In this document: positions 7,761 to 16,262 of the stretch, in pieces
Position numbering within the stretch: position 1 is the first letter of the stretch
How the letters are laid out: each line of letters opens with the position of its first letter
From: Clostridia bacterium
GTDB taxonomy: Bacteria > Bacillota > Clostridia > Christensenellales > Pumilibacteraceae
Length of the DNA: 50,745 bases
Direction of reading: 5' to 3'
Assembly: GCA_017500845.1 (NCBI GenBank)
Contig: JAFVXY010000020.1
Coordinates: forward strand, 1-50,745
Program-made: the position numbers and the translations under genes
Notes under the pieces: generated by a model
Seen by the model: the letters and a program-made list of their open reading frames with translations, nothing else
Databases searched by the model: none
Told to the model about the DNA's origin: nothing

Positions 7761-7849
7761 GGAGCGGTATCGAAGTGGTCATAACGGCCCTGACTCGAAA
7801 TCAGGTAGCCTGAAAGGGCTCGTGGGTTCGAATCCCACCCGCTCTGCCA
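7761..7849 (+). tRNA. tRNA-Ser (anticodon CGA)
   Basis: An 89-nt cloverleaf with acceptor GGAGCGG/CCGCTCT (G-U at the first pair), discriminator G and encoded CCA. The anticodon stem CCTGA/TCAGG holds a CTCGAAA loop with CGA at 7796-7798. There is a long variable arm (class II) and a T-loop GTTCGAATC. It reads UCG serine codons. Its last 14 nt plus the following A (7836-7850) recur at 8832-8846. Confidence 0.95.
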
Positions 7850-7891: not shown

Positions 7892-8070
7892 AAATGAAGC
7901 GCGCCTGCGGCGCATGAAGACGCTTTGTTAATGAAGCAGCCTTCGGCTATGAAGCATGGCTTCGCCACTTAAGGATGCGCGCTTCGCTTCATGTTCCGCT
8001 TGCGGAACACTTCATGGCAATTGCAGCTTGTTGCAGTTGCCGCTTCATATTGCCAACGGCAATGCTTCAT
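7892..8070. repeat. Array of short hairpins separated by ATGAAG / CTTCAT
   Basis: At least six small stems with 2-4 nt loops stand in a row: GCGCC-tgc-GGCGC (7901-7913), AGCC-ttc-GGCT (7938-7948), TGGC-ttc-GCCA (7957-7967), GTTCCG-cttg-CGGAAC (7993-8008), a 12-bp stem (8016-8041), and ATTGCC-aac-GGCAAT (8049-8063). The left half is punctuated by ATGAAG (7894-7899, 7914-7919, 7931-7936, 7949-7954), the right half by its complement CTTCAT. The whole could fold into one branched RNA or cruciform. No open reading frame crosses it. Confidence 0.7.
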
Positions 8071-8093
8071 TTTAAGATATACAAAGCTACGCC

Positions 8094-8145: not shown

Positions 8146-8775
8146 GTGAATGTAAAGAATAAGTCAAACAGTAAAATCGAAAAAATGGTTTCGGACACAT
8201 CATTTTCATATAAACAACCGTGGTTTTATAATCATTCTTTTGCGCTCAGATGTGAATTGGGAATAGGTGATTCAAAGCGTGTATATTTAAAAAATGCCAA
8301 GAAACGAGCTTTTGAAATATTCGATATTCTTTTTCAAAATCCGCCCGATGCCATATTTTTTGATCATTACGTCGAAGATCTTTCTTTGTTGGATGAAATC
8401 AATATCAATAATACCATTGGTTATTTCAAAAAGGACATAAGATTCCTTGCACAGCATATAAACAAATACGAAAAAACCGTCATCTTCAATATTCCACTTG
8501 ACGAAGATGAAGACAGTGTTCAAAAAAATCGCATTATATGTTATACAGATGCCAAATATCCTTACAAAAAAAGAGCAATAGAAAATTTTCATGGGGGAGC
8601 AAGAACAGTACATTTTGTGTCTTTTGAAAACGAATGCATTTTAAGTATTTATGACGATAGAGGTTGTGATATTGTTTTTGCGACAAGAGAAAAAATGCGA
8701 GAATTTTATGACAAATTGAAACCGTATTTTCTCGAATATGATGCAGAAGAAATGTCGAAGCGTTTTAATGATTAA
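8146..8775 (+). CDS. DUF3885 family protein
   Basis: A 209-residue protein, GTG start after AAGGACGG. The N-terminal part (about 25-65: YNHSFALRCELGIGD, then NAKKRAFEIFDILFQNPPD) and the C-terminal IYDDRGCDIVFATREKMREFYDKLKPYF, then LEYDAEEMSKRF match the conserved ends of DUF3885 proteins, common in Firmicutes and often near polymorphic-toxin or immunity genes. Biochemical function is unknown. No signal peptide or membrane segment is seen. The gene is AT-rich and lies between the two copies of the tRNA-Ser 3' end, suggesting transfer. Confidence 0.75.
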   Translation: MNVKNKSNSKIEKMVSDTSFSYKQPWFYNHSFALRCELGIGDSKRVYLKNAKKRAFEIFDILFQNPPDAIFFDHYVEDLSLLDEININNTIGYFKKDIRFLAQHINKYEKTVIFNIPLDEDEDSVQKNRIICYTDAKYPYKKRAIENFHGGARTVHFVSFENECILSIYDDRGCDIVFATREKMREFYDKLKPYFLEYDAEEMSKRFND

Positions 8776-8850
8776 ACTCTAATCTTGCCGGACACCTTTT
8801 GTTCGTTTTTACCTATGTTTAGACACCTTTTCACCCGCTCTGCCAAAAAG

Positions 8851-15357: not shown

Positions 15358-15783
15358 TTAGTCAAGAACCTTTTCTTTTAGTTCTGCCAAAAAAGTTTCG
15401 CCAATATTGATAGTTTTCTTAAAAAGTCCTTTAACCTTGTAGGGTGTAAAAAAGGACACTTCAAGTCCGTTAGACATAATTATACAGGTTTTTAATGCAT
15501 CGGTGATGTCGTTAGGCGTTGTGCAAATACGCGTGCTGTAAGAAAAAATTGCATAGGTAAAGTTTTCTTTTTTGAGCATTTCAATTGCAACGGCATAGGC
15601 TTTATCTACGTCCGTTTTGCCATCTTTGGGCTGCAAGCTGATTAGCTTGTTAGAATCTGCGATCATTAACATCGGGATTAGCGAACGGTCTTGCTTCAAA
15701 ATATCGGCAGTCACGGCAATATGCTTATCCAAAGCGTTAACAATCAGCTCCTGCACAGCGGTATCAAGTTCAGAAAATTTCAT
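15358..15783 (-). CDS. Conserved hypothetical protein
   Basis: A 141-residue soluble alpha/beta-looking protein with no recognised motif or membrane segment. The start follows AAAGGAG and the gene has its own promoter (15807-15835, minus). Length and codon use look like a genuine gene. Function unknown. Confidence 0.65.
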   Translation of the reverse strand: MKFSELDTAVQELIVNALDKHIAVTADILKQDRSLIPMLMIADSNKLISLQPKDGKTDVDKAYAVAIEMLKKENFTYAIFSYSTRICTTPNDITDALKTCIIMSNGLEVSFFTPYKVKGLFKKTINIGETFLAELKEKVLD

Positions 15784-15835: not shown

Positions 15836-15876
15836 TCAAATTCGCTTTTAGCTCAAATTATAATTGCTAACGCAAA

Positions 15877-15926
15877 ATGATAACTCGCTACGCTCGAATG
15901 ATAATCAAATTCTTGCGAATTTGACA
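15877..15926. repeat. Short hairpins separated by ATGATAA
   Basis: ATGATAA (15877-15883) precedes a small CTCG-type hairpin; ATGATAA (15898-15904) precedes TCAAATTC-ttgc-GAATTTGA (15905-15924). The design (spacer word plus tiny palindrome) resembles the array at 7892-8070. The stretch 15784-16169 has no gene; it holds this, two terminators, and tRNA-end repeats. Confidence 0.45.
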
Positions 15927-15927
15927 T

Positions 15928-15970
15928 AAAAATAACCTAATTTGATGTAAATTCAAATTAGGTTATTTTT
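15928..15970 (-). terminator. Terminator after distal tRNA-Ser 3' copy
   Basis: A 16-bp perfect stem (15929-15944 with 15954-15969), with Ts on the minus strand. It follows the distal copy of the tRNA-Ser(GCT) 3' end in the tRNA's direction. Confidence 0.75.
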
Positions 15971-16057
15971 GGCGGAGAAAGAGGGATTTGCTCTTGCGTT
16001 TTGCAAAGCGCAAATAAAAACCAAGCAAAAGCTTTGCAAAACGCTTCGGTCACCGCT

Positions 16058-16085
16058 AAAAACAGTGGGTGTCCACTGTTTTTTT
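16058..16085. terminator. Terminator hairpin inside fold-back segment
   Basis: AAAACAGTGG (16059-16068) pairs with CCACTGTTTT (16073-16082), GTGT loop, with Ts following on the plus strand and a shorter T-run on the minus strand. Confidence 0.7.
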
Positions 16086-16126
16086 AACGCTCCGTTCAAA
16101 TCCCTCTTACAAACTTTAAACTAAAC

Positions 16127-16169
16127 AAAAAAAATCTTATTTAAACCGCAAGGGTTCAAATAAGATTTT
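16127..16169 (-). terminator. Terminator of tRNA-Ser(GCT)
   Basis: Arms 16131-16147 and 16153-16169 (one mismatch) with an A-run at 16127-16134 that reads as Ts on the minus strand. It starts immediately after the tRNA CCA end. Confidence 0.8.
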
Positions 16170-16262
16170 TGGCGGAGAAAGAGGGATTTGAACCCTCGCA
16201 CCAGTTTTATCCAGTCTACTCCCTTAGCAGGGGAGCCCCTTGAGCCACTTGGGTATTTCTCC
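16170..16262 (-). tRNA. tRNA-Ser (anticodon GCT)
   Basis: A 93-nt class II tRNA on the minus strand with acceptor GGAGAAA/TTTCTCC, discriminator G and encoded CCA (16172-16170). The anticodon loop CTGCTAA holds GCT, reading AGC/AGU serine codons. The variable arm is long and the T arm GAGGG-TTCAAAT-CCCTC is perfect. The 3' end is duplicated 200 bp downstream in its direction. Confidence 0.95.

Follow-up and report, generated by a model that had tools for sequence, protein, structure and literature searches.

Integron attC sites are imperfect hairpins that recombine as folded single strands and occur in arrays. Tycheposons are tRNA-linked integrative elements that carry cargo, are kilobase-sized, and bear an integrase. 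The closest described counterparts of the locus reported here include integrative elements at tRNA/tmRNA genes and those of their tandem derivatives that lack an integrase. An example is provided by the ssrA islands of Dehalococcoides, which, according to the portion of the published account used here, insert in the T-loop and accumulate tandem 20-bp repeats of the 3' end (PMC3146451). In our search of the literature, whose coverage leaves out most subscription journals, elements of the sort proposed below were described nowhere.

The locus lies on contig 12 (50,745 bp) of assembly G000 (1.28 Mb, 22 contigs, 75% complete). "The window" hereafter means this whole stretch. We report the anatomy of a unit behind its tRNA-Ser(GCT) gene, the recurrence of such units at other tRNA genes, the boundary they share at the T-loop, the hairpin that defines a first class of inserts, tandem units, and differences between sister species.

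Anatomy of the Two tRNA-Ser Loci

The tRNA-Ser(GCT) gene (16170..16262; ARAGORN, Rfam RF00005) lies on the minus strand, like all features of its locus, and its 3' end is the first copy (A) of the repeat. In the sense of the tRNA, the order is tRNA, terminator hairpin H, inverted copy A', two hairpins, direct copy A2, and terminator H2. The proximal terminator H (16126..16169) consists of an inverted repeat (16130-16147/16153-16170) and a T run; all 43 aligned bases are identical in the sister species G005, with one gap. A' (16094..16108) is an inverted copy of the tRNA T-arm and acceptor. An earlier note on this DNA had seen it as a 10-bp match; the inverted part is present and is 15 bp long, 100% complementary to 16179-16193, and it outscores every swapped tRNA end (see below). 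The first of the two hairpins, ACAGTGG..CCACTGT with A/T flanks (16058..16085), was recognized by eye. The second, GCGTTTTGCAAAGC..GCTTTGCAAAACGC (15996..16044), came from an inverted-repeat search as a further inverted repeat of the insert. A2 (15965..15990; repeat search and boundary analysis) comprises 21 nt of tRNA, from T-loop to CCA, and 5 nt more. As the note had said, the 3' end is repeated in the same orientation 200 bp away: positions 15965-15990 and 16165-16190 agree at 26/26 bases. H2 (15925..15970), detected as a hairpin, is related to H, the pair scoring 13 against a maximum of 5 among swaps; the terminator that the note assigned to each copy corresponds to terminator-like hairpins at 15928-15970 and 16130-16170. 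Beyond H2 lies an array of short hairpins with constant spacers (15845..15924, by eye), in which 76/80 aligned bases are identical in G005.

The description of the insert as non-coding holds, as no ORF of at least 60 aa overlaps it; at this threshold it has no integrase gene of its own. Folded as RNA, positions 15925-16200 reach -105.8 kcal/mol (z = -10.7). Rfam matched only the two tRNAs in the window. The 341-bp Ser(GCT) stretch found nothing better than E 0.058 in the rest of G000 and, among 61 genomes searched, is nearly whole only in G005 (97%). The gene behind the unit (15358-15783) has no Pfam family, and we therefore dropped an initial label, DUF1893, for it. A homologue (64.5% identity) follows a tRNA-Ser(CGA) unit in G022.

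Both tRNA genes of the window had been said to show the pattern. It is plain at Ser(GCT) and looser at tRNA-Ser(CGA) (7761..7849, plus strand; ARAGORN), where the second copy of the 3' end (8832..8849, plus strand; 17/18 by repeat comparison) lies about 1 kb from the tRNA, outside the 700-nt range of our test. A cargo-like DUF3885 gene (8146..8775, plus strand; ORF call, PF13021, 66.5 bits) stands between the two copies. Behind the distal copy, a terminator-like hairpin of its own and then a remnant in inverted orientation extend up to 8894. By eye, positions 7892-8075 and 15845-15924 are both arrays of short hairpins with differing stems and a near-constant spacer (ATGAAG and TTATCAT, respectively); comparable arrays stand behind Asn, Arg, and Leu tRNAs in G000 or G005.

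Recurrence and a Boundary at the T-Loop

We surveyed 16 stretches around G000 tRNAs and regions of five sister genomes covering part of their tRNAs (only 5 regions for G006), with contig-edge tRNAs left out. The last 28 nt of each tRNA were compared with the next 700 nt, ended at the next tRNA, and at least 120 nt had to be free; of 126 tRNAs, 47 were short of this space, which left 79 for the test, or 78 once duplicates were removed. A match was a direct copy scoring at least 11 within 700 nt. In these six genomes of the genus, 21/78 testable tRNAs have a direct copy, 10 an inverted copy, and 24 either. When ends were swapped in from tRNAs for a different amino acid, 1580 pairs yielded 4 direct and 8 inverted matches; the copy at Ser(GCT) is thus not due to chance. 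We relied on this swap null because a random-window null, in which 10/286 windows scored at least 16, was coarse. Direct copies are found at 5/17 testable tRNAs of G000 and 16/62 of the five sister genomes, in line with the recurring process that the earlier note had suspected. All six genomes are fragmented drafts of 22 to about 90 contigs, and several copies lie at contig ends.

Further afield, two genomes from other families of the order gave direct copies at 2/23 and inverted copies at 4/23 tRNAs (30 loci of 86 tRNAs); G052 accounts for every one of these, and G037 has none. Three genomes elsewhere in the phylum gave no direct copy among 21 tested tRNAs (23 loci). Loci chosen through Ser(GCT) gave 0/17 in other genera of the family and 3/11 in the other families of the order. 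From these unequal counts, the distribution is patchy. The family includes the genus Pumilibacter, since G025 is Pumilibacter intestinalis (1200 nt of L238 are identical in L258). This species has a class I unit (see below) behind Val(CAC), at L258.

The limits of the copies were read from 22 tRNAs (genus, family, and order loci) whose A2 holds the last 12 bases exactly. Leftward identity extends 14-21 nt from the CCA end in 21/22 loci and 37 nt in one. The T-loop occupies positions 17-23 from the tRNA end in standard numbering; sixteen left edges fall inside it and five just beside it. To the right, identity stops 0-41 nt past CCA. In 7/22 loci, including Ser(GCT) of the window, H resembles H2 above any swap. 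The repeated block therefore starts sharply at the T-loop and often takes in the terminator. Two features expected of tRNA-targeted elements are found here, a 3'-end repeat at the far boundary and a defined starting point in the tRNA (21/22). A' matches its own tRNA above all swaps in only 8/23 loci.

These limits bear on an explanation without any recombinase, namely local fold-back duplication. A replication fork stalled at the tRNA terminator hairpin would switch strand, copy the tRNA end inverted (A'), turn at a second hairpin, and copy it direct (A2), and REP-like hairpins would later settle in the spare copy. The alternating orientation of A, A', and A2 with a hairpin at every turn agrees with this, as do the relation of H to H2 in 7/22 loci, which points to H having been duplicated with A, and the Thr(GGT) locus of G000, where terminator and A' form one long hairpin. 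We nevertheless regard it as unlikely: fold-back copying would account for A', but a local accident predicts neither a left edge held to the T-loop border in 21/22 loci nor one core family at many tRNAs with near-fixed spacing.

Families of Insert Cores

The insert cores group into three families, of which class I is best defined. Such sharing had been anticipated in the earlier note, which would have been at odds with repeats confined to these tRNAs or with inserts lacking any common feature; as the inserts form families that share cores, neither is the case. Units measure about 110-260 bp and are mostly gene-less. Rfam applied to eight loci with units returned only tRNAs, an unrelated FMN riboswitch, and sub-threshold matches.

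The class I core comprises a hairpin, a stem GGTGGCGA..TCGCCACC whose loop varies in length, and AAGGGAGCGAAGCGACCGCC directly next to A2. It is carried by G003, G004, G002, G005, and others, and seven units delimited by hand measure 129-136 nt. A covariance model built from eight sequences has matches in 12/74 family genomes, among them all 8 from the genus. Over 34 matches, the length of the core ranges from 41 to 112 nt, with 25 at 92-112 nt. In the alignment of the 34, which includes the model-building sequences and, being fitted to the model, leans towards it, 96.6% of cells pair, 7/12 pairs have changes on both sides, and the covariation score is 0.266, compared with 0.078 for shuffles and a slid maximum of 0.046. 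Both sides of the main helix have changed in 35 cells, 6 are unpaired, and only 2 are G-U; these counts hint at pairing as DNA.

Eighteen of the 34 class I matches follow a same-strand tRNA by at most 260 nt (14 of them by 39-60 nt), and the tRNAs ahead of them are those for Ser, Arg, Leu, Gly, Ala, Val, Tyr, Thr, and Glu. Among the other 16, four have less than 130 nt upstream, two are second units of an array, two lie near Arg(ACG) in the opposite orientation, and eight are unexplained. That one core adjoins tRNAs of differing identity counts against the integrative-element explanation put first below, since a simple crossover at the T-loop would swap acceptor ends and cannot carry one unit from Leu to Ser.

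Class II cores (TACTCCGC..GCTCCGTGGCG..) are found at Glu, Thr, Leu(TAA), and Ile genes. In two cases judged by eye, Leu(TAA) of G000 and Thr(GGT) of G002, the core lies inside the D-arm of a near-complete second copy of the tRNA, an arrangement that favors fold-back copying; at the latter (L160:362-640) it is a cluster of hairpins. The class III hairpin, CAGTCC...GGACTGTTTTTAGC, is present at Arg(TCG) of G000 and G005. Its pattern occurs in 6/61 genomes, the reversed control in 2/61, once each, and some copies have no intact tRNA beside them. By eye, the hairpin at 16058..16085 resembles the one that G000 has in its Arg(TCG) insert; its loop is one base longer, and the pattern misses it. In G031 (L179), a class III hairpin is flanked by two copies of a sequence that looks like a tmRNA 3' end.

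Turnover between Sister Species

Units stand in tandem at Gly(CCC), Leu(CAG), and Glu(CTC). Comparison of G000 with G005 shows conserved units at some tRNAs and differences at others. Between H and A2 inclusive, the Ser(GCT) units of the two species agree at 197/198 aligned bases with 2 gap positions. The 5' flank agrees at 119/140 and H2 at 41/46, and identity is 96.5% for the next gene and 94.8% for the 5.2 kb around the locus. Such near-identity indicates that the unit is either under strong constraint or was exchanged recently. For the Arg(TCG) unit, identity over 136 bp is 97.8%. At Glu(CTC), the unit next to the tRNA in G005 recurs in G000 (92.5% over 159 bp) at a place 128 bp farther out, with another unit between it and the tRNA. 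At Thr(GGT), it is the proximal terminator of G005 that the distal terminator of G000 matches. At Ser(CGA), the spacer holds the DUF3885 gene in G000 and a class I unit in G005, and from the tRNA to the shared flank the two species have no blastn match at E 0.001. Arg(ACG) and Trp have a unit in neither species, and several orthologous tRNAs have none or share none. When occupied and unoccupied sites were compared, Glu(CTC) carried one more unit on the proximal side in G000 than in G005, and none of the empty sites was fully clean.

The near-identity at Ser(GCT) beside a 5' flank at 119/140 is what would be expected of a structured RNA or DNA device kept by selection, for instance an RNA that ends in CCA and mimics a tRNA, or an antisense directed at the tRNA end, and the class I covariation would also fit one. 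Recent exchange would also explain the identity, however, and sister species differ in their units at the same tRNA. A terminator-like hairpin moreover precedes each unit, and the pairing counts given above for the class I main helix suit DNA hairpins better than RNA. We consider such a device improbable.

Taken together, the T-loop edge, the shared cores, the near-fixed spacing, the tandems, and the displaced unit point to serial site-specific insertion at the T-loop. The explanation we put first, with about even confidence, is that the units are miniature integrative elements, for the most part gene-less, whose insertion site is the T-loop of tRNA genes. In the tRNA sense, each would consist of H, A', a structured hairpin core, and A2 running from T-loop to CCA. 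A new element would enter between the tRNA body and the older unit, bringing along a new 3' end for the tRNA and a terminator of its own, and pushing the old end and terminator downstream. Gain would run in this direction, a site-specific recombinase would act in trans, and A' might be part of the folded or inverted core site of the element. A' is nonetheless foreign to ordinary att sites, which weighs against this explanation. So do the 16 class I matches that have no same-strand tRNA within 260 nt, the orthologous tRNAs of G000 and G005 that have no unit or share none, the fragmentation of the six draft genomes, and the scarcity of PF00589 matches, with none in G002 and one in G000.

Candidate Recombinases

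The earlier note had proposed looking for an integrase acting in trans. The only PF00589 match in G000 is a 289-aa tyrosine recombinase (L197:1450-2319) that starts about 135 bp behind tRNA-Leu(CAA), a tRNA without a unit by the same test. A relative (91%) stands at the same tRNA in G005 and is the sole close one among 30 of the 34 matches of the genus that were compared, the others that matched it being at most 34% identical. This enzyme is a candidate helper. G002 (88% complete) has units and no PF00589 match. Y1 transposases (RAYT, PF01797) were found in 1/8 genomes of the genus, whose assemblies are incomplete, and not in G000. The earlier note saw a true and recurrent pattern and its guess at the nature of it was roughly right, the trans-acting integrase being putative.

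A recombinase behind Leu(CAA) in both species, like the gene still held in the Ser(CGA) spacer, could also be a remnant of larger elements. The units would then be scars of decayed prophages or ICEs, attL and attR being left after deletion of the middle. We find this hard to credit, because random deletion would leave no similar covarying cores at tRNAs of differing identity, and the narrow length ranges of the seven class I units and of 25/34 class I cores also speak against it.

Distribution of the Core Motif

An exact scan of 84,980 species for ACCAAGGGAGCNNAGCGACCGC, the 20-base motif of class I, gave 88 matches in 79 stretches: 51 in Clostridia, 20 in Symbiothrix/Dysgonomonadaceae, 16 in Paenibacillus, and one in Neolewinella. 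Viral contigs contained no exact match. Behind a same-strand tRNA, at 60-450 nt, lie 6 of the 51 Clostridia matches. Most of the others in Clostridia are REP-like and end in GCGTGGAGAAATCTC or similar. Those of Symbiothrix/Dysgonomonadaceae are REP-like as well, with 0/20 near a tRNA, and none of the 16 Paenibacillus sites is near one. With so few matches near tRNAs, the motif as such is not tied to them. GCGNAGC forms an unusually stable DNA mini-hairpin. An uncultured Clostridia assembly (L328:696-937) has three REP-like repeats with the motif, 110 bp apart.

By eye, the Paenibacillus sites are attC-like, with AAC..GTT ends, and one array has a DUF3885 gene between two such sites. A contig of Paenibacillus glacialis (L254) has three attC-like sites with the 20-base motif among genes that include DUF3885; it resembles an integron cassette array, in this case of a Firmicute. 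The class I model scores Paenibacillus and REP-like sites marginally (best E 0.00038; Paenibacillus from 0.0015), on loci selected by the motif. We tried these scores as proof of common descent and set them aside, as they are marginal and the loci motif-selected.

These sites raise the prospect of an integron-like system anchored on tRNA genes, in which a structure-reading recombinase would act on folded single-strand sites with an attC-like core. A' would pair with A2 in the folded strand, and the hairpin core would be the variable end of an attC-like site. Insertion would occur at the T-loop, with its near-universal GTTC, of almost any tRNA, and occasional cargo such as DUF3885 would be carried. 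If so, the 20-base motif in Paenibacillus attC-like arrays would mark a common origin. We hold this to be rather improbable.

Comparison with Known Systems

If the units are mobile as miniature elements, they would be among the smallest integrative elements, and a large share of the tRNA genes of this lineage would have been hit with none lost, showing that essential genes can be repeatedly invaded and repaired. They would also join three subjects that are usually handled separately: REP-like hairpins, tRNA integration sites, and attC-like sites. Given the sharp edge at the T-loop and the comparisons between sister species, the mechanism can be put to a direct test.

With tycheposons, the units share linkage to tRNAs; tycheposons are kilobase-sized with an integrase, whereas the units measure about 110-260 bp. 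Unlike MITEs, they lack fixed, target-independent terminal inverted repeats, as their ends follow the local tRNA. The likeness to integron attC sites rests on the 20-base class I motif within the Paenibacillus sites (by eye), yet the arms of the units are tRNA sequence and not attC boxes (also by eye), most units have no cassette gene, and a search limited to the general integrase domain PF00589 identified no IntI. The units resemble REP palindromes, associated with RAYT, and the GTAG/CGTC families in being short structured intergenic palindromes, as far as the part of the source consulted describes them (PMC3733652). The class I motif is indeed shared with REP-like repeats of other bacteria, but the units are tied to tRNA ends and carry local tRNA sequence. 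Finally, 3'-end direct repeats, insertion at the T-loop, and tandem accretion are common to the units and the ssrA islands of Dehalococcoides, which, in the portion of the account used here, bear genes, depend on a serine recombinase, and have one target (PMC3146451). The units, in contrast, are small and mostly gene-less, and they combine many tRNA targets with an inverted arm and a conserved hairpin core.
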